NCBI GenBank assembly: GCA_030278955.1
Contig: JAOANR010000004.1
Location: 56,817,120 to 56,881,119 of the forward strand
Length of the DNA: 64,000 bases
Source of the DNA: Hygrophila difformis
Taxonomy: Eukaryota; Streptophyta; Magnoliopsida; Lamiales; Acanthaceae
Direction: 5' to 3'
Shown: positions 4,481 to 62,262 of the stretch, one piece after another
Layout of the letters: each line of letters opens with the position of its first letter
Numbering within the stretch: position 1 is the first letter of the stretch
The notes under the pieces: model-generated
The model's input: the letters and a program-made list of their open reading frames with translations, nothing else
What the model was told of the DNA's origin: nothing
Databases searched by the model: none
Translations under genes and position numbers: made by a program

Positions 4481-7400
4481 TCAACTAGCACGTGGGAACC
4501 ACGTGCCTGCAAGATCTGCTGATAAAAAGCTACGACAGGTGTCCGGAGGGAACGCCCAAGAAGTGAAGAACGCTTCCTCCGTGGCACCCAATTTCGCCAA
4601 GCTGTCCGCAACTGAGTTTCCTTCCCGTAGTATGTGTTGGAACCGAATGAAGTGGAACCGAACCTTCAGGTCATCAATGCGAGCAAGATAGGCAGCAAGC
4701 GAATGAGAAGGCGATCTAGGGGCCTGGAGCAAGTGAAGAGACTGCATGGAATCACACATACAACAAACATCCTCTATGCCACGATCAATAGCCAATTGTA
4801 GACCAAAAAGAATGCCAGCAACCTCGGCATGAAGAACCGATGTACTCCCCAAATTTCCAGACACCCCTCCCAACCAAGCTCCATCGTTTGCACGCAAGAC
4901 CGCACCAAACCCAGATCTGTTTGAGCCCGCCTGGAAGGAGCCATCTGTGTGCAGGAACACCCCACTCCAATCTCCCATATTCCAAGTGACAAGTCGGGGG
5001 GAGTGCAGGCGAGGTGACTTGATGATAGCTTTGTCTAACAAACCCTTGAAATGCATAGTCTGCCGAACAAGGGAATGATGGGACGAAGCGGAGCCCTGGA
5101 AAACCCTTGCGTTACGCTCTTTCCAAATACACCAAAGTCCAGCCATGAATATGTTGCCAAAGCTGGAGTACATGTAGTGCAACCATCGCCGAATATTATC
5201 CCTGTCCAGCGTGTGGAGATCTGTTGGCATGGGAATTTCAAGAGATCGCCATACTGCCTTCACCCATTGACATAGGAACATGCAATGACGCCAATCTTCC
5301 TCATAAATTCCACATATTTGACATAAAGGAGAGCTTGCAAGCTGCCTATGGTGACGGAGGGAGTTGCATGGCAAGGCTTCCCAAGAAATCATCCAGACCA
5401 AGAAGCAAATTCGCTCCGGGAGCTGAGTATTCCAAATCCAAGACCAGCTACCACTCATCTCAGCCACATTAAGAAGAAAGTGATATCCCGAACGCACCGA
5501 ATACAACCCATGCGCACTCCCTTTCCAACTCCACCCATCCAGAACCATCGCATGTAATAAAGGGGGCGGCTGATCAAGTATAGATTTGCGTATAGGCTCC
5601 GGAATGAGAGTGTACAGTCGAGACAGATCCCAACCATGAGGTGTGAGAATGTCAGACACCCTTAAGTCCATATCCCGATTCTCCACAAAGGGCATTCGAG
5701 GTCCAAGTTGATGATTCTCAAACCATGGAGAAAACCATAGAGAGCTCGCCCCATCTCCCAGCCTGAAGGAGTAACCAGGAAGAAGGTGAGTTGCCGCTTT
5801 GAGAATCCCTCGCCAGGTGCAAGAACCCTGTCGCTTAGAGGAGAGGGTCGGCTGGCCATTCCAACCTCGGAAATCATATTTAGCACGAAGCAGTCGACAC
5901 CAAAGTTTATCTCGACCCATAATCATATCATCCACCAGCTTACCCAGAAAGGCCATATTAGCATGCCTAGCTTGCCGGAATCCCAAACCCCCCGCTGCTT
6001 TTGGGCAGGCAATACGATCCCAACCGACTAGATGGATCCCACGGCTCTTATGATCCTTCCAAACGAATTTCCGAATCCTCTGATCAATCCTTGTACAGGT
6101 TGCAACTGGAAGCAGACCGATTTGCATAGGGTATGCAGGGATAGCCGCCAATACATGACGAGCTAATGTGGCTCTCCCCGGTTTATTAAGCAGCCTCATC
6201 GCCCAAGAAGTCATCTTCTTATCCATGGCCTCCAAAATGTAGTCATAAGCTCCTCGGCTTACTCGCCCCATATGAATGGGAAAGCCCAAGTACTTGCCCA
6301 GATTAGTAGTGAAAGGAATACCAATTAAATCCGAGAAGGACGTCTTCTCCATAGAGGACACAGACCTGGAAGCGAGCGCTCTTGATTTCTGGATACTCAC
6401 ACGCAGGCCCGATTGAGAAGCAAACTTCTGTAGTGTAATGGCCATGGACTGGATGCTAGAGGCAGTCGCCATGGTGCATAAAATGATATCATCAGCGAAA
6501 AAGAGATGAGAGACCCCCTCACATGCCGGAGACATTTTTATCGGAGCCCAGTCGCCTCGGCCAACAGCCTGCCCGATGGCCCTGGACAGCCGCTCCATGA
6601 CTATGTTAAACAAATACGGTGACAATGGGTCACCCTGTCGAAGACCCCGATGAGGGGAGAAACCCTCCAAGGGCAAGCTATTCCAAAGGATGGAGTATGA
6701 TGGTGAACCGACGCATGACATAATGAGGGCCCGCAGGGAGGATGGGAGATCCATTTGCATTAAACACTCCTCCAGAAAAGGCCAACGGACAGAGTCATAA
6801 GCCTTCTCAAGGTCGATTTTTACAATAATAGCATGAAGGCGCGAGGTGGATGAGTTGAGAGAGTGGACCAGCTCCTGAAGGATGATGGCATTATCAGCCG
6901 TCCCTCGACCGGGCAAAAAAGCCGATTGAAGAGGCGAGATGTAAGAAGCCAGCAGGGGCCGAAGACGATTCACTAGCACCTTCGAGACCAATTTGTATGA
7001 GACGTTACATAAGGTGATAGGACGGAACTGCTTCAAGGTTTGAGGAACTGGGACTTTAGGCAGCAGACAGATGTGAGCCTTTGCCAACTCCGGATCTATG
7101 CAGCCTGTAATAAAAGCCTGTTGGACCATAGCTACGATACTATTACCAAGTATCGGCCAGTGCCTCTTGTAAAATGCCGCCGGAAACCCATCCGGTCCCG
7201 GAGCCGCATAGGGTTTAAATTGGCGGAGAGCATCCACAACTTCCTGGGATGTGACTGGCCCAGACTCAACCGAGCATCCCAACTCGTTTATGGGCCGAAG
7301 AGGAGGTAGTGTATGTCCTGAATCATGTCTACTGTCATCAGAAAATAATTGGATGTAAAAGTCCCGCACAGACTGTTGGAGGGTAGTAGAATCCGTGCAC

Positions 7401-8626
7401 CATGACCCGTCAGGCAACATGAGACCATGAATCTTGTTACGATGATGATGAAATTTGGCTTGGGCATGGAAATATTTAGTGTTCCGATCCCCAAGCCGAA
7501 TCCAATCATCTCTAGCTCGTTGAAACCAATACAGTTCCTCTTGATCAAGCACTTCCTGGTAATCCTTTTGCAACTTCTTCTCAAGTAGAATATACCGGAT
7601 AGAATCGACATTCGCCAAGGCCCGATCAAGGCCAGCCAACCGTCGTAGAATTTTCTTCTTTCTGTTTCTAAGCCGACGGTATTCTTGGGAGCAATTCTGA
7701 ACAGACAAAACCTGGAGGCGATGGAGTTTGGCAGATAAAGCACCAGGGCTGCCAGTCCATGCGTTCTGAATAAGATCCTCGTAATCAGGCCGGTTACTCC
7801 ATATCGCTTCCCAGCGGAAGGGACGTGGGGCATGACACTGTATAGGCGTCCCACAAGACATGAAAAAGGGTGCGTGGTCAGAGCCTACCCTTGCCAGGAT
7901 ATCAACATGGCCGGAGGGAAACATGTCAATCCACGCCAAACTTGCTAGAGCACGATCCAAACGTTTCTTCAAGATGGTCGTGTTAGCAGGCCTGGACCAT
8001 GTAAAGAACGAGCCATCCGTCCTAACAGGGAGCAATTCACAAGCAGCAATACAATCATGAAACTCATCCGCCCGAGCTTGGTTGAAAACCCCACCTTGCA
8101 CCTCAGAAGATGAGATCACCTCGTTCCAGTCCCCCATAAGGAGCCACGGCCCCTGTATACGAGTCCTTAACTGGGCCAGATATTCCCAATCAAGGCGCCG
8201 CCTATAAAAGTTAGGCGAGGCATAGACCGCAGTGTAATACCAAACAACAGATCCTGCCTTCAACGACAGCGTTAGAAAGCGGGCATTCTCTTCAAACACA
8301 TCACATTTGATCAAGCTCCCCGATCGTCCCAAAATCCATATACCTCCCGCCCTTCCGACAGATTCAGCGAGGCATATAGGGTAGTAACCACGGCTGTACA
8401 CAAAGTTCCTAACCCGATCATAGGGCCCTTGGGGTTCAAACAAACAAACCATAGAGGGACAATGGAGCCGCAGTAGATCAGCAAGAGTTCGACGTGCGTG
8501 GCTATTCATCAAACCACGTGCATTCCATGCCATAATAGTAAAATCAGTAAATCCTGACATAAAAATAATTAAGAGAAACCCCAACAACCAAACACCACAT
8601 AACGCGGGGAATATCAACATTAGCAT
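4481..8626 (-). CDS. LINE ORF2: endonuclease, reverse transcriptase, RNase H
   Basis: The frame is open for 1381 codons. The domains in order are: an APE-type endonuclease (MAWNARGL, LLMGDWNE, SFFTWSRP, VGSDHAPF); reverse transcriptase (FRPITLCNVSYK, IVKIDLEKAYDSV, GDPLSPYLF and the catalytic FFADDI); a zf-RVT region with a CxxC...HC pattern; and RNase H (HTDGSF, LHAEVAG, CDSM, VADSLAK, with all four acidic residues). The RNase H tail ends FFTSWAFPPDT...GTWFPRAS. The real initiator could be the first Met or the internal Met at MSGFTDF or MAWNARG. It would catalyse target-primed reverse transcription of its own mRNA. No disabling change is visible in this frame. Confidence 0.93.
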   Translation of the reverse strand: MLMLIFPALCGVWLLGFLLIIFMSGFTDFTIMAWNARGLMNSHARRTLADLLRLHCPSMVCLFEPQGPYDRVRNFVYSRGYYPICLAESVGRAGGIWILGRSGSLIKCDVFEENARFLTLSLKAGSVVWYYTAVYASPNFYRRRLDWEYLAQLRTRIQGPWLLMGDWNEVISSSEVQGGVFNQARADEFHDCIAACELLPVRTDGSFFTWSRPANTTILKKRLDRALASLAWIDMFPSGHVDILARVGSDHAPFFMSCGTPIQCHAPRPFRWEAIWSNRPDYEDLIQNAWTGSPGALSAKLHRLQVLSVQNCSQEYRRLRNRKKKILRRLAGLDRALANVDSIRYILLEKKLQKDYQEVLDQEELYWFQRARDDWIRLGDRNTKYFHAQAKFHHHRNKIHGLMLPDGSWCTDSTTLQQSVRDFYIQLFSDDSRHDSGHTLPPLRPINELGCSVESGPVTSQEVVDALRQFKPYAAPGPDGFPAAFYKRHWPILGNSIVAMVQQAFITGCIDPELAKAHICLLPKVPVPQTLKQFRPITLCNVSYKLVSKVLVNRLRPLLASYISPLQSAFLPGRGTADNAIILQELVHSLNSSTSRLHAIIVKIDLEKAYDSVRWPFLEECLMQMDLPSSLRALIMSCVGSPSYSILWNSLPLEGFSPHRGLRQGDPLSPYLFNIVMERLSRAIGQAVGRGDWAPIKMSPACEGVSHLFFADDIILCTMATASSIQSMAITLQKFASQSGLRVSIQKSRALASRSVSSMEKTSFSDLIGIPFTTNLGKYLGFPIHMGRVSRGAYDYILEAMDKKMTSWAMRLLNKPGRATLARHVLAAIPAYPMQIGLLPVATCTRIDQRIRKFVWKDHKSRGIHLVGWDRIACPKAAGGLGFRQARHANMAFLGKLVDDMIMGRDKLWCRLLRAKYDFRGWNGQPTLSSKRQGSCTWRGILKAATHLLPGYSFRLGDGASSLWFSPWFENHQLGPRMPFVENRDMDLRVSDILTPHGWDLSRLYTLIPEPIRKSILDQPPPLLHAMVLDGWSWKGSAHGLYSVRSGYHFLLNVAEMSGSWSWIWNTQLPERICFLVWMISWEALPCNSLRHHRQLASSPLCQICGIYEEDWRHCMFLCQWVKAVWRSLEIPMPTDLHTLDRDNIRRWLHYMYSSFGNIFMAGLWCIWKERNARVFQGSASSHHSLVRQTMHFKGLLDKAIIKSPRLHSPRLVTWNMGDWSGVFLHTDGSFQAGSNRSGFGAVLRANDGAWLGGVSGNLGSTSVLHAEVAGILFGLQLAIDRGIEDVCCMCDSMQSLHLLQAPRSPSHSLAAYLARIDDLKVRFHFIRFQHILREGNSVADSLAKLGATEEAFFTSWAFPPDTCRSFLSADLAGTWFPRAS

Positions 8627-8783
8627 TGTGGAGCATTCTCTCCAACAGCCACGACAGTAGTGGCCTCCAAATCCATCGCTTGTACTGAGGTGGAAGAAAG
8701 GTTATCCCTCGAGGAGGGCGCTTCAGAAAAACCATTGGGACAACCCGACGAATTGGAACTCCCGTCCGGCTGCTGTGTAAGTC

Positions 8784-9887
8784 TTAAAGCAAGAGTCGAG
8801 GCAAGGGACTGACCATCAAAAGGTCCTCCGCTGGGACTATATTGGGGACAGCCGCAGGTTTCTTGCGTGGACCTCTCCGTTTGACCACCATCCACTCACC
8901 AATACCATTAGGGCTGGGGTCCAGATTCGTATGATCATGGGTATCGGTTTTTTTCGTAGTGGTAACCGCTTCCGAGGAGTCATGCGTAACCACTTCTTTG
9001 CCAGTAACCGTCTCTGCCACCTTACCAGAGCTATTGCGATTGGCATTGTCTGCGGCCGTGGCCACGTTCCCATCTGCAGTCTCAGTTTCAGACGGCTGGG
9101 ACGGAGCAACCGGACAACGGCCTCGAAGGTGGCCGAACTTGCCACAATTCATGCAAACCATATGAAGGCCCTCATACGCAATGTGAATGATATCACCCTC
9201 CACATCCACCATACCAAGTAAAGGGTCATCAAGATTCAACTCGACACAAACACGTGCATATCGTCCCCGTTTAAGTTTGAGAGTGTTAGAATCCACCTTA
9301 ATAACTGTCCCCACCGCTGACGCAATTGCACGGGCACCGCTCTCACTGTAGAAAGCATGGTCGAGACCTGGAAAGCGTACCCACGCCTGGACTGTCTTCA
9401 CAGTCGATTTCGCAGGATGAAACCCTCGGAACCATCGAGTCACAGATAAGACATGGTCGAAGACCATCCATGGTCCAGTTGTCAAAACCTTTTCCCGATC
9501 TGCAGGCAGTTCAAACCTCGCCATATAATATCCATGGCCAACGTCCAGTAGTTCATACTGACCCGTCAACTTCCACGCCTTAGTAAGGCGATCCTTCAGC
9601 GCCAGGAATCCCACAGTAATACCCAATGGTTTAAGGATCAAAGTATCCTACCAGGAAGCATAAAATTCATCAAGGACCGAAGGTGCGAAACGAATTTTGG
9701 GACAAATCTTATTGACACCAGATTTGTCAATAGTAACAAGGTTCGCAGCAAGTAAGTCTGGGACCGGCTCCACAGTAGGAGCATCTTCTGACACAGGAGC
9801 CGACATGACGACATCCTTAAACGATGGAGGGGAAGGTGGCCTACCAGTCGAAGGAGGGGGATCAGGAGGATGCTCAGGAGAATTCAT
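8784..9887 (-). pseudogene. LINE ORF1 (gag-like), one in-frame stop
   Basis: The frame opens at ATG 9887 with a proline-rich start (MNSPEHPPDPPPS) and continues to 8784 in one frame, broken only by a TAG at 9648-9650. After the stop come a DUF4283-type region (PWMVFDHVLSV, AWVRFPGL) and a CCHC zinc knuckle, CMNCGKFGHLRGRC. This is the usual order for plant L1 ORF1, an RNA-binding protein that packages the element's RNA. Because the frame is otherwise intact, the stop looks like a single recent substitution. Confidence 0.88.
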
Positions 9888-11872: not shown

Positions 11873-12085
11873 TTGAATTGCTGAATTATATTATTAATTA
11901 ATTATGATTAAAAAAACGAAAAGTGATGTATAAGAATTCTAAAATGACAGTGGATAGCGGAGGGGATAGTGCGGATCGAGAGTATTTTTGTAAGTGTCCC
12001 AATAAATAGTTGAAATTATATTTAAATTAGAAATAATAGTTATAAAATTATTGTGGTGTCATCATAAGTGGTCAGCCAAAACTAG

Positions 12086-12298
12086 CTCCCTGTTCCGTTT
12101 TAGTTGTCTTTTTAGAAACAAAAAAAAAACATTCCAAAATAGTTGTCACTTTTCATATTTATATCACATTTTTCCAATATTACCCTTACCCTTTCATATA
12201 TATTACTCCTAGAATATTGTGCAATCTCTCTCTACTTCAACTTGACTCTATTATAGAATAGGGATAAAAGTGAAAAACTAACCAAGGAACGAAGGGAG
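12086..12298. mobile_element. MITE of the TAGTTGTC type
   Basis: The ends are CTCCCTGTTCCGTTTTAG and AACTAACCAAGGAACGAAGGGAG, followed by TA. The interior starts TTGTCTTTTTAGAAACA, which recurs at 19530. Stowaway-like length and TA flank. Confidence 0.7.
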
Positions 12299-12670
12299 TA
12301 TGGTAAAAGATCATTGAAGACTCGAAAGTAGTAAAAGCATGAAGACGATGGAACTGTAGCTAGCTAGGGACAAGTCAGAAGTCGATTTTAATTTGTGGAC
12401 AGCTAACACTCCCAAATTAAACAAAACCAAAAAATACATGTAAGAAATTTAGGCAACGAGCAGCAGCAGCAGCAGATGGAGTTTTTATTGCTGTTGATCA
12501 GAAAATACACAAAGCAGTTATTATTATTATTATTGAAATCTCCCAAGCTAAGGGGTACGTCCTCATTAATTACTACCACTACTGCTGTTGCATATTTGCT
12601 GCCTCAACATCATTTCCACTCTACTGAATACAGAGTACTACTCTCTCTCTCTCTCTCTCTTAAGAGTATT

Positions 12671-14504
12671 TTAAGCCGCCGCCGCAGCCCCTCCCTGTTC
12701 CTGCTGGCGCTGCTGAGGTCCCGGGAAGAACATCTCATACTGCTGCTGCTTCAACACCGCATTCACCTCCGCCACCGGCACCCCGAACGCCAACTCCTTC
12801 GCCGCATCCTCCATTTGGTCCAGCACATTCCTCTTCCCTGCCAACGGCATTTTTGCATTATCGTACGCCACCGCGTCGTAGCACATTATCTGCAGGTTTC
12901 CATTGCCGGAAGCCACCGCCACGAATGGATACCCCGCCGGCACCACCACAAACATCCCCGCCCGAAGCTGCGAGCTGATTTTCCGGTAGCTTGGGGCGGA
13001 CGGCTCCGACTCGCGTGGCTGATATCCATAGCTCTCCGCCACGGCGTCGCGCGGCGCAATCATTTCCATGTAGCCTTCGCCGCCGGCTATGTAAGCCAAC
13101 TTGGTCGATTTGGTGTTGTACAACGGACCCATCATCGCGCCCTGGATGTTAGTTATTAAGCAATTAATTAATTAATTAATTCACTAATAAGTACAGTAAT
13201 CAATTTCACCACAAAAAAATTTGAAATTCACAATAATGCATGCCCTCGGGACCAACGCACCGGCTTGATGGTAGCAAAACCAACCCCCATATTAAAGTCC
13301 TGGAACTCCCGGTACACGTCAGCTGTCACCTCGTACAACTCCCCGAACTCGTTCGAAAACGTCGGCCGTTGCCGGAAAATATTGACGGGGCGTTCCTCGG
13401 GTTTTCCGCCGAAAGGCCAGAAACCGCCACCGCGGCCCCTCTCCTCGCGGCTCATGGACTGTATCTGCTCCGGCGACGCCTTCTGTATGACGGGCGTGTT
13501 CTGCCCGAATACGTTGCTCAGCTGTTCCTTGTTTGCCTGGATCCCAAATCACACAGCCAAACCATCAATCTCCATTAAACATACACAAAAATCAATGATA
13601 ATGAACAACAAATGCACAACATACTGTACGTCGTCACCCACATTGAATGCAGATTGGAGGATGTCGTCACTGAATTCCTTGAGGAAAGAGTTGCCCCCTG
13701 CCCCAAAGAAAGTCTGGAAGTGGCCGGGATTGAAGACCGGGAGAAGGAGCTTAGCGACGATGATTTTCTGGTTAGAATCCCTATTGATCATATAAACCGT
13801 AGTTCCAGCATGCACTCTGAGAGTATCTCCCGCCTGCAGATTGATGCTCCGCCTCCTATCCGGTCTAAGTAATTTCAACGTCGCTTGACCTGCACGCCCG
13901 TACAACAAATAACTCAAATTACCAGCTAGGCTCCTAGATCCTACTATGATGGATAATGAGTAGTAGCTAGCTAGTAGATTGTACCTTCAATGACATAAAG
14001 GACGCCATCGGCGTCCCAATGATCGGGGGAAACGAAGGATTGGGGGGCGGCCTCGAGGAGGGTGAAGCGATAATTCTCGATACCGTTGAAGAGAGCGGAT
14101 CGGTTGTTGAATTTAGGGAGGATCCAGAGGCGGCCGTGTTCGCTCTGGAGGCCGGCGTAGAAATGGCGTTGCTCAAACACATAGGGATTATTCTCTCTTA
14201 CCTCTTCTCCTTGTTGTTGTTGAGGTGGTTGTTGTTGTCCTTGTCCTTCTGCTTGTTGTTGTTGTCCTTGTCCTTCTTCTTGTTGTTGTTGGTTATATTG
14301 TGGTCCTTGGTATTCCCTCTCACATTGTTCCATGCAATAAGTGATGGCCTCAGGGGCACCGCGGGCACAGTAATCCTTGCATTTCCGGAGGGCCTCCTCG
14401 GGGTCTCTTTGGGCGGCGGAAGGGTTGGGAGCGGCGATGAGAGCAATGAAGAGTGCTGCAGCAGCAAGGAAGAGTAGTCGGGAGGATCGCATCTTCATTT
14501 TCAT
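12671..14504 (-). CDS. Vicilin-like 7S seed storage globulin
   Basis: There are four exons: 14504-13985, 13889-13630, 13536-13261 and 13141-12671. The summed frame is 509 codons (508 aa plus stop). Residues 1-31 form a signal peptide. Residues 42-61 hold CKDYC-x10-CMEQC, the C-x3-C...C-x3-C hairpin found at the front of many vicilins. A Gln-rich linker (about 68-105) follows, then two cupin barrels: the first around WILPKFNNRSALF to GTTVYMINRDSNQK, with a sequon NRS; the second around MMGPLYNTKSTKLAYIAGGEGYME to GMFVVVPAGYPFVAVAS. It ends in an Ala run. Vicilins trimerise and are stored in protein vacuoles as nitrogen reserve. The upstream DNA carries a TATA box, an ACGT element and RY motifs typical of seed promoters. 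Intron 3 is short (about 120 bp). The Met used among three at the N-terminus is uncertain. Confidence 0.92.
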
Positions 14505-14570
14505 TATTATATAATATTTAATTTAATTCAGGAAATAAGGATGGGAGGCAATGATGAGAGGGTGAATTAG

Positions 14571-14580
14571 GGATATAAAG
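14571..14580 (-). promoter_or_regulatory. TATA box of the vicilin gene
   Basis: CTTTATATCC on the minus strand lies 67 bp upstream of the start codon. The surrounding sequence is shared with the promoter of the cupin-less relative at 16546, which has nearly the same spacing. Confidence 0.7.
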
Positions 14581-14616
14581 AGGAGGGGGTGGCATGCGGG
14601 AAAACAAGTGTCCAGC

Positions 14617-14626
14617 TGACGTGTCA
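14617..14626. promoter_or_regulatory. ACGT (ABRE-like) element, vicilin promoter
   Basis: TGACGTGTCA contains the ABRE core ACGTGTC, bound by bZIP factors in abscisic-acid and seed-maturation control. It lies about 115 bp upstream of the vicilin start codon. Function is inferred from motif and position only. Confidence 0.5.
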
Positions 14627-14758
14627 AGTGGTGGGGGTATTTGAGCGCCGCGTACCGGTCATGCAAAGCAAATGCAAGACAGGTCATACTCTTGCATGTC
14701 ATCATATATAGTTGTTGAATGGTCCATTTTGTACGGTGCAACATATAGTATAAACCAG

Positions 14759-14766
14759 CATGCATG
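14759..14766. promoter_or_regulatory. RY repeat CATGCATG, vicilin promoter
   Basis: A perfect RY element, the binding site of B3 factors (ABI3/FUS3/LEC2) in seed genes, lies about 255 bp upstream of the vicilin start. Further TGCATG or CATGCA cores lie near 14660 and 14693. Confidence 0.6.
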
Positions 14767-14881
14767 CACCCCAAACTCCTTTTCTAATTTCTAGCTAGTA
14801 CGTATACGTACGTAGTATATATGTATTTTAATTTAATTTTTAGTTATTTATATGCTGCTGTCTCTGCCTGTATACTCTATG

Positions 14882-14888
<7 letters not shown>

Positions 14889-14914
<26 letters not shown>

Positions 14915-14915
14915 T
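14889..14915. repeat. (TA)n microsatellite
   Basis: An uninterrupted AT dinucleotide run upstream of the vicilin promoter. Confidence 0.9.
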
Positions 14916-15043
14916 TTTAATTTTCACCAATCAATATTGTTATATTCACATTATGCATATTTTAATATTTTTAATCCTTTAATTTCTCCTTTTTCAAAAC
15001 AGCCAGAAAAGCTAAGAAAATAAACAATTAGAAAATGAAAGGA

Positions 15044-15177
15044 ACCAAACACAGTTGGCCGGAGTGGAATAGAGCTCTGACAGCTTAAACAAAGAATTCG
15101 GATTCGGGTTCGAGCATTTGTTTAGTCTTAGGTCCAATGAGACATATGGATACCCCGATATATTCACCTAAAAAAAA
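15044..15177 (+). mobile_element. tRNA-derived SINE (family B)
   Basis: Box A is TTGGCCGGAGTGG and box B is GGTTCGAGC. The element ends in an A-run after TATTCACCT. The 13-bp duplication GAAAATGAAAGGA flanks it at 15031-15043 and 15178-15190. It is related to 18061-18253. Confidence 0.87.
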
Positions 15178-16060
15178 GAAAATGAAAGGACAAACAAAAC
15201 ACTAGGCCCAGCTACCGGTGAGAAAACCAAGTTCTCGCCGCTGATGCAAGGAGCGGTATCAAAGGATCAACCGGGAACACCCACGTAATAAAAAAATTAC
15301 TCATCATTCGCACCCATCTTTACTAGATAGTCCGATACGGCATTCCCTTTCGCAATTTTGGAAATCCCTTGGAAGCTCATCAATCCGTAATAGCTGCGGA
15401 GCCAGCCAATGGTTAGGAAAATCCAAACCTAATCAAATTGAAAACCGAAAAACCAAAATAAAATTTTAAATTTTATTTTGGTAAAATTTGATTTTTGAAT
15501 TTTCGATTACTTTTCTCGCACCTGTAGAGCAGCATGTGTGAGAAATTGAATGACGTTCATTACTTTAGGAGTCTTCCTGTAGCAGCATACCCAAAACACA
15601 TAAAATATTGCTTTGGTTAATTGAATCGATTTGGGTCCAAAACACATAACATTTTGCTTTGGTTAGTTGAATCGATTTGGGTAGAGAATTAAATGAAAGT
15701 TAGTAGAATTTGACACTCTTTTTTAAAAAAGTACTACTAAATTATAAGTTGAAGTTTTACTTAGTTGTGTATCATCCTGGTTCGATGCATATACATATAT
15801 AGTGAAGTGCAGCTGTCCCTATTATGAATTTGGCGCACTTGAACTTAATTATGACTTGAATTGAATATTGAGTTGGAAAATTAAATCTGCAGGAGGGCTC
15901 TAATTAAGGAGCTACTATAGTTTAGTTTATTGATGTTGAAAGAAGTTTACACGCAAGCCATTATTATTATTATTATTAATAAATTCTCCCATCGAGGGAA
16001 TAAGATAATATTCCGTATATACTTGATGATAAAATTTGAAGACAATAGTAGTGGTATTAT

Positions 16061-16480
16061 TCAGGCAGCAGCAGTACCGGTCCCGGTCCCAGCTGAAGCC
16101 GCCGCAGCAACTCCCAACAAATCATATGGGTATGGCTGCTTCTTCAACACTTTGGCATTATCCACCTGCTGCACCTGATCATCATCCTTTTGTTGTTGGT
16201 GGTGGTGGTTATAATTATATGGTGGAAATGGGTAGGCTTCTTCACATCTTTTAAAGCAAGCCTTGTGTGTCGCCGGGGGATCCCAATCGCAGGCATCATA
16301 GCAGTCGTGGAGGGCTCTGAAGTTGTACTCGCAGTCGAATTCGCACCCATAATCGGCGTGGCAGCCGTCCTTGCATTTCCTCAGGTCCTCCGCCGACGGC
16401 TCCGGTATTTGGGCGGTTGATGAGAGAGCAATCAAGAGGAGGAAAAGTGCGAGGATGATGATGAGCAGGGAGGATCTCAT
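16061..16480 (-). CDS. Vicilin derivative lacking both cupin domains; cysteine-hairpin protein
   Basis: This is an intact single-exon frame of 139 aa. Residues 1-23 are a strong signal peptide. Residues 34-79 hold eight cysteines as four C-x3-C motifs (CKDGC, CEFDC, CYDAC, CFKRC), forming two helical-hairpin modules; the second has the same x10 loop as the vicilin at 12.7-14.5 kb. The leader and the first motif (EDLRKCKDGC) match the vicilin start (EALRKCKDYC). The tail NAKVLKKQPYPYDLLG plus an Ala-rich end resembles the vicilin tail NAVLKQQQYEMFFPG plus Ala run. The ~400 aa between, with both cupins, is absent. The core promoter is also shared. I infer a vicilin duplicate with its middle deleted, encoding a secreted or vacuolar cysteine-hairpin peptide. 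Hairpins of this type are known as antimicrobial or protease-inhibitor peptides in other plants; no activity is shown here. Confidence 0.78.
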   Translation of the reverse strand: MRSSLLIIILALFLLLIALSSTAQIPEPSAEDLRKCKDGCHADYGCEFDCEYNFRALHDCYDACDWDPPATHKACFKRCEEAYPFPPYNYNHHHQQQKDDDQVQQVDNAKVLKKQPYPYDLLGVAAAASAGTGTGTAAA

Positions 16481-16545
16481 TTTTATGGAGTAATTAATTG
16501 ATAATATTAATTAGGGATGGAAAAAGGGCAGAAGGAAAATGGGGA

Positions 16546-16553
16546 TATATAAA
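16546..16553 (-). promoter_or_regulatory. TATA box of the cupin-less vicilin derivative
   Basis: TATATAAA (plus-strand reading) lies 66 bp upstream of the start codon. The flanks GGATATATAAAGAGGA match the vicilin promoter GGATATAAAGAGGA. Confidence 0.7.
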
Positions 16554-16570
16554 GAGGACACGCATCAGGT

Positions 16571-16598
16571 GTATATATATATATATATATATATATAT
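16571..16598. repeat. (TA)n microsatellite
   Basis: An AT dinucleotide run directly upstream of the TATA region of the small gene. Confidence 0.9.
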
Positions 16599-16639
16599 TT
16601 TCGCGTATATCGGATATCCCATGCTATATTGGTCCCAAA

Positions 16640-16835
16640 ACTAATTCCTAGATGATCCAGTGGAGATTGAAGAATTGTCTCTCCAAAGCAGAATTCTTCG
16701 TCCCTCGAGAGGATCTGCAAAGGCAATTAAGGGTGCCTCTCCTAAAGCAGTTTTTTGCATACACAATGCTCGAACTCGAGAACTTGCTTAAGCGATTAGA
16801 GCCCCATCCACTCAAGTCAACTGTTGTTGGTGCGT
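16640..16835 (-). mobile_element. Degenerate SINE (family B)
   Basis: Reading on the minus strand, AGTTCGAGCATTGTGTATGC, CTTTGCAGATC and CTCGAGGGA match the body of the SINE at 18061-18253. Box A and box B are recognisable. No clear tail or target duplication remains, so it is an old copy with approximate ends. Confidence 0.55.
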
Positions 16836-17078
16836 GTATATATATTTTCAATTCTATCTTTCATTAAAAAAGAAAAAAGAACTATTTATATTCCGGTTAT
16901 TTTGAGAAAAATAGCCATTTTTAATTAATGAAAACAAATATCCATAAATAATTATGCTTTTCTAAAGTTTAATATGTTTATTTTAGTTTCCCATCTTATA
17001 TTAATAGAAATGTATAGAGATTAATACAGTATGTTTGAAGCCTATAGAATAAATTTTAATTAAGGTGTAAAAGACTAA

Positions 17079-17538
17079 GGGCATGTTTGGATTGGCTATT
17101 AAAAAAAGTAGAAGCCAAAACTAGAAGCAGAAGTGAAAGTCAAAAGCAGAAGCAGGTAACTTTTGTGTTTGGATGGAATGTTTGAAAAACAACTTTTTTT
17201 TAAAAGAGTATTTGGATTTGTAAAGTGAAAAGTGTTTTTGAAATGTGTAAATTATCAAAAAAGATATGCTACATATATAAGATAGTATATATTTATAGTG
17301 TAATTTAAATAAATTAATAGGGGCATTTATGACTCTGCACACATTACTTGGTACTTTTGGCTTCTGCTTTTCGGATAAGCACCTCCTGTACTGCTTCTCT
17401 CAGAAGTACTTTTGCAGTTTTTCGAGATGCTTTTGCTTTTTCTAAAAAGTCAAAACAAACACTTTTTTTTTCTTTAAAAGTAATTTTGACAGAAGCAAAA
17501 GCCAAAAACACTTGAAAAAAGTCATTCCAAACATGCTT
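17079..17538. mobile_element. PIF/Harbinger-type MITE
   Basis: The inverted ends are GGGCATGTTTGGATTGG and CATTCCAAACATGCTT, flanked by TAA on both sides (17076-17078, 17539-17541). A 3-bp TAA/TTA duplication is typical of PIF/Harbinger. The interior holds many AAGCAGAAGC-type words in both orientations, giving a foldback structure. Confidence 0.72.
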
Positions 17539-18060: not shown

Positions 18061-18253
18061 AACCAAACGCAATTGGCCTGAGTGATATAGAGTTCTGGCA
18101 GTTTAAGCAAAGGTCTCGGATAACAGCTTTTGTGTATGCAGAATTTTACTTTTGCAGAGGCAACCCTTTGATGCCCACAGATCTTCGAGGGATCAGTCTT
18201 GGATCCAATGAGTATCCTGAATATACTCGGTCATTCAAAAAAAAAAAAAAAAC
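18061..18253 (+). mobile_element. tRNA-derived SINE (family B)
   Basis: It has a box A-like ATTGGCCTGAGTG head, a body with TTTTGTGTATGCAG and CTTCGAGGGATC, and a 15-base A tail. The 11-bp duplication CTCTAATAAAT flanks it at 18050-18060 and 18254-18264. Confidence 0.85.
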
Positions 18254-20477: not shown

Positions 20478-20906
20478 GTTAAGAAACCCCCCATGTTATT
20501 GTTACCCCAAGCCAAGAACAATAAAGCCGCGGTGATGTAAATTTCAGTGGAAAAAACCCCTCAACTAACAACCTCTGCTTAGGAGATTCACTTTTTCACA
20601 TCTCCTACCCCACAAGAAATTTCCAATGCAAATACACAAACCAATCAAATCAACCACACACGCATACCGACCATCACCAATTTCAGATGACAAAATTACT
20701 ACCTCCGAAAGTTCTTTTACATTTAGTTAGGTGTCAATCCCAACTATGCGTAGTAAATTCTTCACCCTAAATTGTAGTACTACTAGTATTTAATGAAGAC
20801 TGCTTTCATCTATAAGGACTACGGAATACCTGGAGAATTGTCATTCTGAATCTCATCTCTTGCCTTGCCTTTATTCAATCAGTTAACCAAATCCTCCTCC
20901 GCCAGA
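20478..20906. other. Upstream region of the HSP20-like gene
   Basis: No repeat or gene is recognised. An in-frame ATG at 20865 lies 42 bp upstream of the start chosen for the HSP20-like gene. Confidence 0.4.
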
Positions 20907-21341
20907 ATGAAGGTTCATCCGCTCCCTGGAAACTATCGCCGCCGCCTCAAGGAGCTGCGGCGCCTTCCCCACATATTCCCCAAGGTTCTGGAGCTTCCGT
21001 TCCGCTCCGACGCCGACGTTTCCGTTGTGGAAACGCCCGATTCCTTGTATTTCACAGCCGCCGTAGCGGATATCGACGGTGGCGGCGAAATTAGGGCGGA
21101 TTTCGTCGACGTCTACCCTGGATTCACGAAGATTGTGATACAGGGGAGGGGGTTTGTGGACTCGTCGGCGACGGAACTGGAGGCCGATTGGTGGCGGATT
21201 AGGCTGCCGGATTTGGTCCGAGGGGAGCTGGCGTCGGCGAGGTGCGATGACGGCGAGCTGGTGGTGACGGTGCCGAAGGGGGCGGAGGTGGAAGACTTGA
21301 GGGGAATTGGAGGCGGGAGAATTGTGGGCATTGGTGTATAA
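20907..21341 (+). CDS. HSP20-like (alpha-crystallin fold) chaperone-type protein
   Basis: The open frame encodes 144 aa from MKVHPLPGN, or 158 aa if the ATG at 20865 is used. I prefer the second Met because residues before it look like untranslated leader (MPLFNQLTKSSSAR). A basic start (RRRLKELRRLPHIFPKVLELPF) is followed by a beta-rich region of alternating residues (DADVSVVETPDSLYFTAAV; TKIVIQGRGF; RIRLPDLV; DGELVVTVPKG). The order ADVSV...F, IRLP, DGELVVTVPK fits the p23/HSP20 fold, in which the final strand reads G-x-L-x-V-x-x-P. No intron is visible. Substrate and location are unknown; the assignment is by pattern, and a divergent plant-specific member is likely. Confidence 0.65.
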   Translation: MKVHPLPGNYRRRLKELRRLPHIFPKVLELPFRSDADVSVVETPDSLYFTAAVADIDGGGEIRADFVDVYPGFTKIVIQGRGFVDSSATELEADWWRIRLPDLVRGELASARCDDGELVVTVPKGAEVEDLRGIGGGRIVGIGV

Positions 21342-22248
21342 TAGTAGAATTCTAGAAAGAGGGGAATTAATTACTCTCGTCTATTTAAACTTACGCTTTT
21401 TAAATGTGCGCGCGCGCGCATAGTGCATAATGCATTGCTTGCAACTTTAAGCATATATACTACTCCATGTTCGTATTTTGAATTTTGATTTCAGCTGTGT
21501 TAGTAGTCGTCCTTCTAAGTTACTAGTACTACATTTTGAATTTTTCTTGGTGGGTTTTTTAAAACAAAACAAGAGACTGGAAACACTTTCATTCCATTTT
21601 GGACCTTTTTTCTTTTCTTTCTTTTTTTACCTTTTCTTACAGGTTTTTTTGTTTCCAAATGTTGGGTTACGGCTATTTCAGGTATATAAAAAGTTTGTGG
21701 CACGGAAAACACGGATTCTCGTTAAACTTTTCAAAGGGTTAGATGGAAAGGTGCATTCTTATTCAAGCAAAGAAAAGAAAACAAATCACACAATTCGTCC
21801 TGTCCTATAAATGCTCTTTACGCTGCAATACACAATTTTCCCTCAACATATTAACTCCTCTTTCAAACTTCCATTAGCCGAAAGAAAAGTATTCATCCAC
21901 GCTTGCTTTCTTTTCTTCCCTCAACATATTCCAAATCCAAACCGACTGCAGCTTATATTATATAGGTATAATAAAGCTCCTGAGATATACATGAAAAACC
22001 AAAACGGTGGTCTTTTATTATATAGCAGTAATTCATGACTCAAAACAGGCAGACCGAAACCCCAATAGAGAGAGGCCTCAAAAACAGCACCAGGATCAGT
22101 ATGGGCTGTAATAATGCTAATTCCAACACGTTTAATCTCGTCACCCACCGCCGCCCTTGGGTAAGTTATTAATAGTAGTAGGAGTATATAATAGGAGACA
22201 TACATACCAGTAGAAGGTGAAAGAAAACGCAAACAAGGAAGGGGCGAA
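21342..22248. other. Intergenic region, seed LEA gene promoter side
   Basis: It holds a short alternating (GC)n run near 21409-21420 and otherwise AT-rich DNA. No gene is seen. Most of it is probably 3' flank of the HSP20-like gene and promoter of the LEA gene. Confidence 0.45.
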
Positions 22249-23484
22249 ATGAGTCAGGAACAGCCAGTGCGGAAGGAGGAGCAGCAGGCGGGCGTCAAAT
22301 ACGGCGATGTTTTCAATGCTTCCGGTGAGATAGCCTCCGGGAGAGAGGATGCCATCAGGTACGGCGATGTTTTCAACGTTTCCGGCAATCTAGCCACGCA
22401 GCCAATTGCACCACAGGATGCCGCGGCTCTGGAATCTGCGGAGAGTGCCGTGCTCGGGCAGACGAACAAGGGCGGCCATGCAGCGGTAATGCAATCGGCC
22501 GCACAGGCGAACGAGCGTTGCGGTGCGGTCGGGCATGATCAGATGTCTGATGCTGTTGAAGCCCATGGCGTCACCGTCGCTGAAGCAGAAGTCGGTGGCT
22601 ACCACATCCTCACCGAGGCCCTCGGCGGTCAAGTACTATACGTCGTCCCTTTCCCTTGATATTTTTATCCATACATGCATTTTGCTGGGGCTTCTATCCT
22701 CTGCTCAAACTATATTCTATCAATCAGAATCAATTATTGTTTCCTTGGTTGAAGGATTCATCACCCTCGTTTGAAATGATACAAATAATTAAATCACATC
22801 ATATCATATCCTTACAATTTCCTGTTTTTAAACACAAGTTTGGAGGTGAATCCAAAGATGCAAGTCCAAATATAATTATCATGTCCGTGATTTCAAAATA
22901 TTTTTGAACACGAATGAATTATTTTTTCCACCTCTCTATGAATTTAAGGTAATTGGACAGTATAGCATGTCGGAGGCGATTCAGGCCGCAGGTCGTCCGG
23001 CATCGGAGATGGATTCTGATGCGGTTACAATTGGCGAGGCGCTGGAGGCAAGTGCCCTTTCTGGCGGAGACAAACCAGTCGACAAAGGTGATGTAGCCGC
23101 AATACAGGCAGCAGAAGTTTGTGCGACTGGTCTGGGGCATGTTGTTCCCTGGAGCATTACGGCAGAAGCACAGTCAGCTGCCAAGTACAATCTCCAAACA
23201 GACAAGGACGAGGACAAGATTAAACTCGCAGACATTTTAATGGTACGGAGGATCTTACAACGATTTAATAAATACACTGCCTGGCTAGGGCTCAATGTAC
23301 TGAACTTGGGATTACTTGTATTTAGGATGCATCGGCAAAACTGGCAGATGACAAGGCGGTGACAATGGAGGATGCAAAAGGTGTGGTATCGGCTGAGATA
23401 AGGAATAAACCGGGCATGGCAACAGACCCAGACGGTGTAGCTGCCTCAGTGACGGCGGCAGCAAGGCTTAATCAGGATAAGTGA
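22249..23484 (+). CDS. Seed maturation protein, LEA SMP (D-34) family
   Basis: There are three exons: 22249-22632, 22949-23242 and 23326-23484, all in phase 0, giving 278 aa. The N-terminus has the tandem signature KYGDVFNASGEIASG and RYGDVFNVSGNLAT. Three SMP-type repeats follow: AAALESAESAVLGQT; TIGEALEASALSGGDKPVD with AAIQAAEVCATG; and VTMEDAKGVVSAEIRNK with VAASVTAAARLNQ. The protein is hydrophilic and rich in Ala, Glu and Asp, without signal peptide. SMP LEA proteins accumulate late in seed filling and are thought to protect cell contents during drying. It lies near the vicilin and its derivative, which share the expected expression time. Confidence 0.92.
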
Positions 23485-41954: not shown

Positions 41955-44900
41955 TTATTGCAAAAATTGCTTCGTGTGGTACAACCCGATACGATCTAAC
42001 TCAAGAACATCAAAAAGGAAATCTGGAGGCCTCACAAAATGCTGAGGACTAGCGCTAGAAAAATGACTCCTAATGAGAATATCGACAGCCTTGTTACATT
42101 CTCTAGAAATTGAGGAGAAGTGTATGTCCCAATTCCAGGACTTCATCTCACGGATTTGCTCAACCCAACGATAAGCCGGACAAACAGTTGGAGATGCATC
42201 ATTTATAAGCAGAATAAGATCCTGACAATCCGACTCAACAATTAACTTAGTGATCCCCATAGACCAAGCAAGCTGGAGAGAAATGAGAATACCCCAAGCT
42301 TCTGTCTGAACAATGTCCAGTTTGTTGCCTTGAACTCGAATGCCCCCTAACCAACCACCATTTGAATCCCGCAAGATACCACCGGCCACACTGGCATCAC
42401 GAAGAACTCGGCCATCACAGTTAACCTTGATCCATCCATCGGGGGGCCTTTCCCATCTTGCTCGGCCACAGATCCAAGCATGAACACCATGCAATCGGAG
42501 TTCTTTCCTTGCGCCAAGAAATTCATTAACAACTCGTTGAATCCTGCAATGCAGCATGTTCCACTGAATATCTCCATGGCCAAAGAGTTCCTGGCATCTG
42601 AGCTTCCATATAAGCCAAGCACCAATCCCAAAAACTGCAGCTTTCATCTCCCCAACCTTCTCACAACTCATAGAAGAGATCCAGTGTCGAATATCCGTCT
42701 GCCAAAAGTGGTTGATTGAGTGCATTCCCAAGTTCGACCAGACCAGGGCCGAAAGTGGACAATCTCTGAGAGCATGGATACCTGTTTCTAATTCACCACA
42801 TCGATGACAGCTTCCATCCATTGCTACATTTCTTCTAATGCGTTCAAAACCAGTAAGAAGCCTGTTGTGGGCAGCGATCCAAAGGAATGTGCGAGTCCGG
42901 TGAGGGGCAGGCCATCTCCAAACCAATTTCCAGTCCATGGTGGGACTGTCAACACAGTGCAAGCTTTCCAAGTGATTAAGGGTACTACTGACCGAAAAGA
43001 TGCCATTTGAAGCGGGCTTCCAGAACATGAAATCTTCCACCGCAGGATTAAAGGGAACTGGATCACATGGCAATTGCTGCAGAACATGTTGAGGTATGCT
43101 TTGATTTAATTCATGAACTTTCCAAGAGGATCCTTGTAAGTAGGATGCCACAGTTCGGTTGAGTTCAGCTTGAGTTAATTCCCGGAAGGATAAATCCTGC
43201 AACAAACAGTTCAAGTTAGTCCAGTTGTCCAACCAAAAGCGAGTAGACTTACCATTACCAATTTTCCAACCAATCATGGTATGAAATTCCTTAACCACGG
43301 AAGAAAGATCTTTGGCGAAGTAGGAGAAGGATTGAGAATTGTGTAGGAAATGGTGTCCATTCCATCCGTATCTAATTTTCAAAAGTTGGCCCCAAACTGT
43401 ATCTCGTTTGAAAAAACCCCAGAAAGATTTCATGAGAAATGCTACATTAAGATCCTTGAGACGACGAAAGCCAAGGCCTCCATTAGTTGAATGACGAGTA
43501 ACATTGTCCCATGCAAGGAGGTGGAAGCTACGATTGCTTGAATGTGATCCCCAAAGAAAGTTCCTGCATATTTTCTCCATATCAGTGATAGTCTTATTGG
43601 GGAGTCGAACGACTTGCATGGTATACATCCCGATGGAATGGAGAACGGATTTAATAAGTGTAATTCTTCCGGCCATGCTGAGGTGACGATGGGACCAATT
43701 CTGGAGCTTAGCAGTGAGCTTGTCAATAAGGTAAACATAGTCCCTGTGAGATCTTCTCCCAGTGATAATGGGAACACCTAAGTAAGAGCCAAACTTAGTA
43801 ATACTTTGAAAACCAAGCTCATTAGAAATATCAACCCTGGTAGCATTATCAACAGATTTACCAAAATAAACTCTAGACTTAGCTATACTCACAACTAAAC
43901 CAGAAATAGAACTAAAATGAGACAAGATGGATTTAATAAGAGAAGCTTGGCCACGGGAGGCTTTAGAAAAGAGTAGGATATCATCAGCAAAAAATAAATA
44001 AGGGATCTTAAGACGTCCTCTATCCCAAGAAGGAGGCTTCCACCGATTGCTGGACACAGCATCAAGGATCATAGCGCTGAGTCGTTCCATACAAAGAATG
44101 AAAAGGTAAGGTGAGATGGGGTCGCCTTGCCGGATACCACAACTTGGTTTAAAGGGAGCAGAAGGAGTGCCATTCCACCAGACCTGAAAACAAGAAGAAG
44201 TGACACAATTCATGACAAGATTAGTGAAATTGGTAGGAAAGCCAAACATAATAAGAGTATCTCGAATGAAGTTCCAGTTAAGTCGATCATATGCTTTTTC
44301 AAGATCTAATTTGAGAATCATGAACCCAGGCTTGGCTGTAGATTTCTCAAGATAATGACAGATCTCTTGGCACAGAATTATGTTATCGTGGATCACCCTT
44401 CCCTTCACAAAACTTGCTTGCCCTGGCCAATGATTCTAGGAAGAATGGGAGACAGACGATGGACCAATATTTTGGTCACGATTTTATAAAGGACGTTGCA
44501 TAAGCTGATGGGACGGAACTGAGTCACTGACTTAGGATTATGGACTTTAGGTAGAAGTACCAGAGAGGTCTGATTAATATCTGATAAATCCCTAGAACCA
44601 TTAAAGCAATCAAGGACGAATTGGTGAACTGAAGGTCCCACGATGCCCCAATTTTGGATATAGAACATAGCATGAAAACCATCCGGACCCGGAGCTTTTA
44701 ATGGAGACATACTCTTGATTGCACTCCATGTTTCTTCCTTAGAAGGGGTAGCTTCTAGTAACTCAGATTCAGAAGGTGATAAAGTGGGAATGAAACCAGG
44801 AGAAATAAAAGTGTCCACAGGTTGGCTAATGGCTGCAGAGAACAAATGTTGGAAATATTGAGTGACCATCAGGTGCATGGACCTTCCATTGGTGAAGATG

Positions 44901-46033
44901 TTACCCTGAGCATCCTCTAGAATAGTATAAGTCTTTTTCCTCATCCGAGCTTTGACAAAGTTGTGAAAAAATTTTGTATTGAGATCCCCAGCAAGATTCC
45001 AGTCCCTAGTGCTCTTCTGAATCCAGTCCAGTTCTTCTCTTTCAAGAATTTGGCCAAGTTCAGTACAAAGTTGAGCATGAAGACGCTTGGAGAACTTGTT
45101 AGTAAACCAACCATCCTGACGTTCAATACCAGCAAGCCTGGCTCTAATTCTAGCTTTCCTCACATTGGTAGAGTTGGAAACTTTAGCATTCCATTCGGTA
45201 GCAGCCGTCCTAAAAGAGTCCAGACATTTAATTATAGATTCATTGGACCTCCATGTCTCTGAGATAAGGCGACGAAAGCTAGGATAACTCTGCCAATTAG
45301 CTCTATATCTGAACACCTTAGCTTGATGGGGAGAATCTGAGGATGGAGGGCTGACAATCTTGGTTAGAAGAGGAGCATGATCAGATTGAATCCTAGGGAG
45401 GACATGGACCGTACAATGAGGGAAATGATCAAACCATGCTTCATTACCAAGCATACGATCAAGGCGCTTCCGTAGAGTCCCCCTAGCCCAAGTAAATTTG
45501 CTTCCAAAAAATTTTATCTCTTCCAAGGAAGTATTATCCAGCCAGCTTCGAAGCTCACTAATATTACTGGTAACAGAAGCACCACCACGACTCTCATCAT
45601 ACTTGGCAATGCAGTTTAGATCTCCACCAATAAGCCACGGATCAAGACGATTGTTATTAATTCTGATGAGTTCTGGCCAGAGATAAGATCTACGAAAGCG
45701 GTTGGGGGATGCATAAACAAAAGTTATAAACATCCGCACATCAGCAACCTGAAGACGGAGATCAACATACTGAGAATGGCTTTCAATAATATCCACAAGA
45801 AGATTGTCATTCCAAAGGATCCAAATGCCTCCGGAGAAACCTTGAGCCTCAACACGGTAAGAGAAATGAAAACCACAGCGACGAACAAATCTGTCAGCCT
45901 GAAAACCACTAATTCAAGGTTCAAAGATGGCCATGATATTGATTGACTTGCTGGCAACAAGATCACGAAACTCTCGTCGAAAACTAGATGAAGCGGCTCC
46001 CTGCACATTCCAACACGCGATATTTAGATGCAT
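41955..46033 (-). pseudogene. LINE ORF2, one stop and one frameshift
   Basis: The frame starts at MHLNIACWNVQG (endonuclease) and is cut by a TGA at 45914-45916 within the EP-x-ISG motif of the endonuclease, a likely CGA to TGA change. It continues in the same frame through WLIGGDLN and IQSDHAPL and the start of reverse transcriptase (FRPISLCNVLYK). Near 44416-44420 one base is missing and the frame shifts into QASFVKGR, LDLEKAYDRLNW, GDPISPYLF, FFADDILLF, a zf-RVT region and RNase H (NCDGRV, QTEAWG, ESDCQD). All domains remain recognisable. Confidence 0.88.
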
Positions 46034-46092
46034 GGTCAAGAGAAGAGAAATAGAAACACAATAAATAATAAAAGTTAAGGAAATGCTAGCAG

Positions 46093-47628: not shown

Positions 47629-48096
47629 AATTTATTATTTTAATACAAATTTTTATTTTCATAATTAGTATTTTAATTAAATAATTTAAATATAAAAATT
47701 AAATATATATTAATATTATTGACAAATGAAATATTATATGAATAGTAAAGGGAAACAAAATGGAATATTCTATTGTAGAGGGAAATTTAGAGTTGTGCGT
47801 TGGAGAGGGATAGTGGAAAACTGTAAATCTAACTGTAAAATAGAGATTGTGTAACTGTAAATAGAGGTGTGGGTTGGAGATGGCCTTAGTAGCTAAATAG
47901 TATAGTATTATATATTGTAAACCTATGCGAAGTATAAATTTAACAAGACTCAATTTGATTATATTTTTTTTAATTATATACTTACAATAAAATTGAGTTA
48001 AAATTTAATAATGATATATGTGTATAGTTTTTCTATTATAAAATTGGTCCTTTTTTTTTTCTTTTTTTTTTACAATATTTCAGGTTTAAGAATGTA

Positions 48097-56306: not shown

Positions 56307-56400
56307 TATATAATTTAAATTTTTTTTTTTTGGTTAACAGTGATACTCATGTGTCGGTAAAGGTGTACGGGAGTCCAAACTATATCTATATATATATAAA

Positions 56401-56824
56401 AGTAATATAGTCAAGTTTCCCCCCACTTCCCCACCCCCTTTTTTCAACAATCACATTTAATTCATCCAACAATGTTTAATCCTAAAATTTTAATATTATA
56501 TATTGAAATCTCCATAAATATATATCCATATCCAATATTAATTAATATATGTTTAATATAATTCTTTTATCAATATTCATCAATATCCTAACAAATTCTT
56601 AATAATATATATATATATATAAGTAATATAGTCAAGTTTCCCTCCACTTCCCCACCCCCTTTTTTCAACAATCACATTTAATTCATCCAACAATGTTTCA
56701 TCCTAAAATTTTAATATTATATATTGAAATCTCCATAAATATATATTCATATCCAATATTAATTAATATACGTTTAATATAATACTTTTATCAATATTCA
56801 TCAATATCCTAACAAATTCTTAAT
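56401..56824. repeat. 221-bp tandem duplication of the Helitron 5' end
   Basis: The block starting AGTAATATAGTCAAGTTTCC occurs at 56401 and again at 56622, with few differences through CCTAACAAATTCTTAATA. The second copy is also preceded by a (TA)n run. Confidence 0.92.
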
Positions 56825-57262
56825 AAAATATTATAATATCTTTAACTAATTTAAACTATTAATTATATATTTTTAGAAGATCACGTCAAATTTGATTCTA
56901 TTCTTCCAATATTTGCATATATATCTCCATCAAACCTCCTCCTATTTCTCTATAAATATTCCATTCATTTATCTAATATCATGGTTGTCTTGAAATTCTC
57001 ATCACCTCACATTTTATTTCTTCATTCTTTGTTTATGTCTTCTCAACATTGATTTTATATTTAAAACAATGTCTTTTGTTTCTTCTCATGTATTACAATG
57101 TTTCACACCCCAATATTTTCCTATATTTCTTTTGTTGCAGGTTAATTTTTCTCAGATTACAATATATTCTTCGTCTTGCTATTCATGTAAGATTTTTTTA
57201 CTCAAACGTGAATATTAGTGGGTTTTTTTTTTATTTTTTCTTATGTAATATATATTTCTAAT

Positions 57263-61841: not shown

Positions 61842-62262
61842 TATTGAGATTAAAAATTATATTGGAATATGTAAAATATGAGTCTGTGTTATTAAAAAAA
61901 AATGGAGGAAGTATCTATATATAATGCGGATTATACCCCCGACGTAGCCCACGCTGGCTTGCATCACTCTTCTTCTCCACGCCAGGGAGAATGCGCAGGT
62001 CACATTTGCACTTTTGTGCTCTAAGCTCTTCTGCTTTGTGAGATAGAGCGAATTGCGATTCGACGCCATTAATGTGCTTCAGTGGTAAAGCGTGACCACT
62101 CATTCGCTTTTTTCACGGATTTTAGCTCTGTAAGTGCCCTGTCCCCTAACTAGTCTCCGCCTATTTACTAAAGCTGAAATTGTTTGGTTCACTGTTAGCG
62201 TTTCTTTTTTGCTGCATCGATTTAGGTTAGTGGTGGAAATTGCTATTTAAGTAGATTGCGAG
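61842..62262. other. Promoter side of the patatin-like gene
   Basis: A MITE-like end (ATGGAGGAAGTA near 61900) is followed by a less AT-rich stretch (61925-62120) of unknown nature and the probable 5' UTR. A possible 5' UTR intron runs from a CTGTAAGTG near 62128 to the TTTAG at 62225; this is unproven. Confidence 0.35.

Follow-up and report, generated by a model that had tools for sequence, protein, structure and literature searches.

A cupin-free, cysteine-rich gene beside a 7S vicilin gene of Hygrophila difformis and its probable origin by internal deletion

Can a gene for a seed storage globulin lose its storage domains and persist as a gene for a small, cysteine-rich peptide? This question is raised by a 64,000-nucleotide stretch of the Hygrophila difformis genome (assembly GCA_030278955.1, contig JAOANR010000004.1, positions 56,817,120 to 56,881,119 of the forward strand; hereafter the window), in which a short open reading frame (ORF) devoid of cupin domains adjoins a vicilin gene. 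An original prediction, made from the letters of the window, had proposed an open frame of 139 residues at 16061 to 16480. The frame is present, on the minus strand, where it runs without intron from an ATG at 16480 to a stop at 16061; translation of the same segment on the plus strand is interrupted by stops. The encoded protein comprises a signal-like hydrophobic N terminus, four C-x3-C pairs, a His/Gln/Asp linker, and a vicilin-like tail (VDNAKVLKKQPYPYDLLGVAAAASAGTGTGTAAA). A Pfam scan found no cupin in it at E ≤ 10, i.e., it lacks the two cupins by which 7S vicilins are recognized. An AtDEF-like match (E 0.011) was discarded, as its 16.5 bits fall below the cut-off of 25. We consider it likely that the gene is a tandem relative of a 7S vicilin gene that lacks one internal block and encodes a secreted product of the hairpinin type.

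DNA shared with the adjoining vicilin gene

The two genes lie head to tail in the same orientation, the vicilin gene downstream, with 1,556 bp between the stop codon of the small gene and the vicilin ATG. The vicilin, which had been described as complete and about 1.5 kb away, is indeed intact: its four exons (Table 1), whose splice sites were picked by eye and then tested by reading frame, join into one open frame of 508 residues, and the last-exon ORF matches Cupin_1 (Pfam, E 6.6e-12).

The pieces of the small gene were aligned one by one with their vicilin counterparts, and each alignment was ranked against windows of the same length from both strands of the 64 kb; as these windows overlap, they are not independent. 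The homology was collinear and comprised the TATA box with the 5′ untranslated region (UTR), the codons for the signal and first cysteines, the last ~30 codons, and the 3′UTR, each of which outranked every other tested window under at least one scoring. The DNA for the signal and first cysteines scored 212, whereas none of 1,750 other windows exceeded 131, and the score of the corresponding protein alignment (74) was reached by none of 2,000 shuffles, so that the predicted likeness of signal-type N terminus and cysteine start held at both levels. The coding DNA of the tail scored 150, with no more than 100 in any of 2,470 windows, chiefly through GTGTTGAAG[A/C]AGCAGC, located 90 and 87 bases ahead of the respective frame ends, and tail plus 3′ flank reached 294, against 240 for the best of 834 windows. 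The 3′ flank alone, under strict scoring, gave 55 versus 39, with none of the 834 as high; the matching block holds an AAT repeat, and its surroundings also match (TGGGAGA before it; GCTT, GTGT, TCAACA, and CAATAAA after it). At the other end, the core promoters read GGATATATAAAGAGGA in the small gene (16543-16558) and GGATATAAAGAGGA in the vicilin gene (14571-14584), their near ends 63 and 67 bp from the respective ATG. Without its TA repeat, the TATA-to-ATG stretch ranked first under loose scoring (local, 148 versus 128; global, 127 versus 104; 0 of 5,254 windows as good). The piecewise alignments thus yielded top-ranked DNA similarity both in the tail and, with the TA repeat left out and under loose scoring, from TATA box to ATG. 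The predicted match of the core promoters stands for the latter stretch, written originally on the opposite strand, and does not extend to motifs further upstream.

Several of these comparisons were less favorable. Under loose scoring, 4 of 834 windows exceeded the 3′ flank alone. The 5′ flank including its TA repeat was equaled by 156 of 2,100 windows when scored strictly and by 6 of them when scored loosely. Strict scoring of the stretch between TATA box and ATG aligned only the shared promoter 12-mer, which 109 of 5,254 windows equal; ordinary by itself, this 12-mer was dropped as evidence of homology. The protein alignment of the tail was not significant, as 460 of 2,000 shuffles reached its score. 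The homology of the tail therefore lies in its DNA, and the shared tail of the original prediction is retained in that form and not as protein.

By codon reading, about 400 vicilin residues and all three introns are missing from the small gene as one block. Because the homology is collinear and the losses coincide in this way, the simplest origin is a tandem copy that underwent a single internal deletion. The left edge of the missing block lies in the Gln-rich linker, where both genes carry CAA runs by eye, and the right edge immediately precedes V-(D)-N-A-(K)-V-L-K in exon 4. In the vicilin gene, a 27-bp tandem repeat (14228-14291) encodes this linker, which makes it a plausible deletion site. 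The lost block would have begun in this linker within exon 1 and ended in exon 4, ~31 codons ahead of the stop, taking both cupin domains and the three introns with it, and the small gene has retained the TATA box and 5′UTR, the signal peptide, the cysteine region, the tail, and the 3′UTR. An N-terminal vicilin fragment with a newly gained stop was rejected, as it would carry neither the vicilin tail nor the 3′UTR.

On comparison of the sequences, both ends of the gene and both UTRs point to descent from a vicilin, the tail at the DNA level. The small gene was thus probably born from a vicilin-type gene by internal deletion, as first proposed, and the matching 3′UTR strengthens the proposal beyond its initial basis. 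As for the vicilin 1.5 kb away as the parent, a vicilin-type donor is upheld, and this very copy is not required: because the divergence is large, the donor may have been another copy.

The cysteine region and its likely product

The eight cysteines (residues 36/40, 46/50, 60/64, and 75/79) lie in the core LRKCKDGC-HADYG-CEFDC-EYNFRALHD-CYDAC-DWDPPATHKA-CFKRC-EEAY, which contains the motif C-x3-C-xn-C-x3-C twice, with n = 5 and 10. The region had been taken for a doubled hairpin module. This claim was not borne out: the first loop has five residues, and the single-sequence AlphaFold model predicts one unit of three helices (residues 30-38, 46-64, and 69-82), the central one common to both modules. 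Duplication within the small gene was discarded, as the modules have no detectable similarity to each other (395 of 2,000 shuffles were as good) and MAFFT preferred to align the small protein by opening a 24-residue gap inside the vicilin hairpins. Alpha-hairpinins have an antiparallel helix-loop-helix fold; structure comparison with the model gave hairpinins in 5 of 11 rows at low Z, and Foldseek gave four rows (best E, 4.5). Searches of PDB sequences returned five chance rows for the 139 residues and none for the hairpin region, and Rfam had no match at the gathering threshold in 12000-17500.

Alternatively, proteolysis of this short precursor might release two canonical hairpins that are independent of each other. 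The second module has the x10 spacing of the vicilin hairpin and aligns to it better than any of 2,000 shuffles, the alignment of the first is fair (4 of 2,000 shuffles), and multi-module precursors are known (PMC11591084). However, none of 56 vicilin linkers is as short as the 9 residues between the modules (minimum, 16), none of 124 vicilin loops is as short as 5 (minimum, 6), and the helix at 46-64 is continuous in the best model. Loops of 4 to 7 residues are reported for predicted 4C peptides, within a search range of n = 4 to 20, and members of proven activity have 11 to 13 (PMC11591084). Two released hairpins appear doubtful to us, and we keep to a single three-helix unit.

The product would most likely be an acidic helical peptide of the alpha-hairpinin type, secreted and stapled by disulfides (charge of -6 for residues 29-84; isoelectric point of 4.6 for residues 24-84). 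The signal would be removed before Gln24, the cysteines would pair within the three helices in the C1-C4 and C2-C3 pattern of alpha-hairpinins (36-50, 40-46, 60-79, and 64-75), and the tail might be trimmed by a vacuolar protease. Asparaginyl endopeptidase excises some hairpinins, and a pyroglutamate at the N terminus is common (PMC8659199). An inhibitor or antimicrobial role was offered in the original prediction as a hypothesis and keeps that status. Neither an antimicrobial of the cationic type nor a hairpinin that inhibits trypsin in the canonical way fits well, given the negative charge and the absence of a mid-loop Arg or Lys from both tight loops. We therefore lean toward placing these roles below that of a secreted cysteine-rich defense or storage peptide; the likeliest role might, tentatively, be that of a cysteine-rich defense or sulfur-storage peptide of seed or embryo.

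Signs of a working gene

Is the small gene a decaying vicilin copy whose core was deleted and whose frame stays open by chance? A stop-free run of this length occurred in 168 of 5,000 shuffles, the differences between the two genes at codon positions 1, 2, and 3 (22, 21, and 28 over 66 hand-picked codons) show only a slight third-position excess, and seed-type motifs are absent upstream; all of this detracts from a functional gene. The vicilin has five CATGCA matches in its 500 bp upstream (both strands, three in one overlapping cluster; the window average is 0.32 per 500 bp) and one ACGTGTC, which we take to be RY and abscisic acid-responsive element (ABRE)-type seed elements, and neither motif occurs in the 500 bp upstream of the small gene. 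Seed expression of the small gene should thus not be assumed.

Relatives likewise did not appear in protein searches, which require shared 5-mers and so are of low sensitivity. Among 143 word-sharing candidates, the 139 residues matched none at E ≤ 10. Of 7,997 candidates scored with a profile of the small protein plus nine N-terminal fragments of vicilins, 17 matched at E ≤ 1: 14 continue into cupin 1 and resemble exon-1 pieces, two (P0086 and P0092) have neither cupin start nor vicilin tail, and one (P0093) is a 56-residue chain. None of the 17 is a cupin-free relative with a vicilin tail.

Against decay, the two genes have diverged strongly, yet the small gene has kept intact its start and stop codons, its signal, the eight cysteines in their regular spacing, its TATA box, and AATAAA. 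Of the six frames, moreover, the true one has the best codon preference under the vicilin table. We regard a pseudogene as unlikely. Only tentatively do we propose the fuller alternative to it, a working gene that links the two known kinds of hairpinin precursor through one deletion, encodes a three-helix, four-disulfide hairpinin, and has a promoter freed from seed-storage control.

Three related short stretches (15043-15103, 16729-16791, and 18061-18168) and a tandem repeat were noted around the gene. Upstream of it, 16729-16791 (-) weakly matches 18103-18168 (+) (E 0.009), by eye a short interspersed nuclear element (SINE) derived from tRNA. Between the two genes, 15043-15103 (+) matches 18061-18121 (+) (E 5.5e-10), by eye likewise tRNA-derived SINEs, and a 46-bp tandem repeat occupies 15591-15682 in two copies.

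Known hairpin precursors and the setting of the gene pair

Published alpha-hairpinin precursors are of two kinds, with and without a vicilin body, and a third, short single-module type is considered of great interest (PMC7191063). Among the predictions in PMC11591084, 30 precursors are multi-module, five are short, with two modules and a short C-terminal region, and 6 of 19 vicilin-similar precursors have no cupins. Almond Pru du 8, which has cC3C repeats, no cupin domains, and orthologs (PMC10252803, PMC8399460), is assigned to the alpha-hairpinin family (PMC13027201). Hence the initial statement that hairpin peptides normally arise by excision from a vicilin precursor describes one of two published types, the cupin-free one being known (PMC7191063, PMC11591084, PMC10252803, PMC8399460), and the absence of cupins is no novelty here.

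The small gene differs from each of these. Vicilin-buried peptides, or type 1 precursors (MiAMP2, PV100, VBP-8, Jug r 2), share with it the signal peptide, the N-terminal C-x3-C hairpins, and the vicilin tail, but the small gene lacks both cupins and all introns, and its modules, 9 residues apart, are modeled with one helix in common. Modular precursors of type 2 (Tk-AMP-X, Sm-AMP-X, EcAMP), like the short two-module 1KP predictions (PMC11591084), share the signal, the hairpins, a short C-terminal region, and the absence of cupin and intron, but in the published descriptions their C-terminal domain has no vicilin homology and spacers separate the modules (PMC7191063, PMC11591084), whereas the tail DNA and 3′UTR of the small gene match a vicilin. 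Pru du 8 (31 kDa) also has hairpin repeats without cupins and was once mistaken for a vicilin (PMC10252803, PMC8399460); by description it is larger, with x10-12 loops. The hairpin of the neighboring vicilin has a weak resemblance (E 0.21) to the Veronica hederifolia trypsin inhibitor (PDB 2cmy), an inhibitor that the 139-residue protein itself did not match.

That the small gene is an old cupin-free hairpinin gene of the modular or Pru du 8 kind, merely situated beside a vicilin and alike through common hairpin descent, would agree with the wide occurrence of such precursors in the literature and with a hairpin layout unlike that of the compared vicilins, but it leaves the matching tail DNA, 3′UTR, and TATA-5′UTR unexplained, and given the UTR homology we hold it to be very improbable.

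Of 7,996 candidates scored against the spliced vicilin, 76 were homologs at E ≤ 0.001, 70 of them plant-named, five unnamed, and one labeled Klebsiella pneumoniae, presumably through contamination. The seven best (43-48% identity) come from plants that we take to be Lamiales. In a tree with 26 of the 76, the window vicilin sits on a long branch (1.16), in no starred group, and the path-nearest rows are mostly Lamiales. PF04702 (Vicilin_N) matched neither the 139-residue protein nor vicilin exon 1, and only 5 of the 76 vicilins have it. A tblastn search across the window found no further vicilin or hairpin gene.

Table 1. Positions of the parts of the cupin-free gene and of the adjoining vicilin gene in the window
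Feature	Positions	Strand	Basis
Coding sequence, 139-residue cupin-free protein, intronless	16061..16480	-	ORF translation
Signal peptide, residues 1-23	16412..16480	-	Homologous to vicilin signal; cleavage before Gln24 read by eye
Cysteine region, residues 30-84, eight Cys in four C-x3-C pairs, three predicted helices	16229..16393	-	
His/Gln/Asp linker, residues 91-105, with putative deletion junction inside	16166..16210	-	Codon comparison by eye
Probable vicilin-derived tail, residues 106-139 and stop	16061..16165	-	DNA rank 1 versus 2,470 windows; protein not significant
3′UTR block common with vicilin, AATAAA at end	15926..15991	-	DNA alignment
TATA box and 5′UTR common with vicilin	16481..16558	-	DNA alignment
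Vicilin exon 1: signal, single hairpin, Gln-rich linker, cupin 1 start	13985..14504	-	
Vicilin exon 2	13630..13889	-	
Vicilin exon 3	13261..13536	-	
Vicilin exon 4: cupin 2 end and tail	12671..13141	-	
Vicilin TATA box and 5′UTR	14505..14584	-	DNA alignment
Vicilin 3′UTR block matching 15926-15991	12484..12545	-	DNA alignment

Elsewhere in the window, ORFs at 22195-22659 and 22850-23362 (+) match Seed maturation protein (SMP, PF04927; E 5.4e-19 and 2.5e-17), another seed-type gene ~6 kb from the gene pair. A 163-residue stop-to-stop ORF at 20850-21341 (+) is HSP20-like by eye, with no Pfam family at E ≤ 0.01, and 62251-63456 (+) holds a patatin-like phospholipase ORF (PF01734, E 2.4e-19). Long-ORF blocks at 4481-9647 and 41955-47631 (both -) are, by eye, long interspersed nuclear element (LINE) retrotransposons. 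Further repeats comprise about three tandem copies of a ~835-bp unit, 98% identical (57253-59768), and a 221-bp repeat (56387-56839).

Searches of open-access literature aimed at a deletion origin, and the papers cited here, showed no case of such a deletion traced by vicilin tail DNA and 3′UTR. What stands out here is the preserved trace of origin together with the compact eight-cysteine layout. Vicilin tail DNA and UTRs without the cupins would provide a concrete route from the vicilin-bodied precursor to the cupin-free kind. The gene pair thus offers a testable case of a storage-gene fragment turned into a free cysteine-rich peptide, with relevance to defense in seeds and to seed allergens like Pru du 8.
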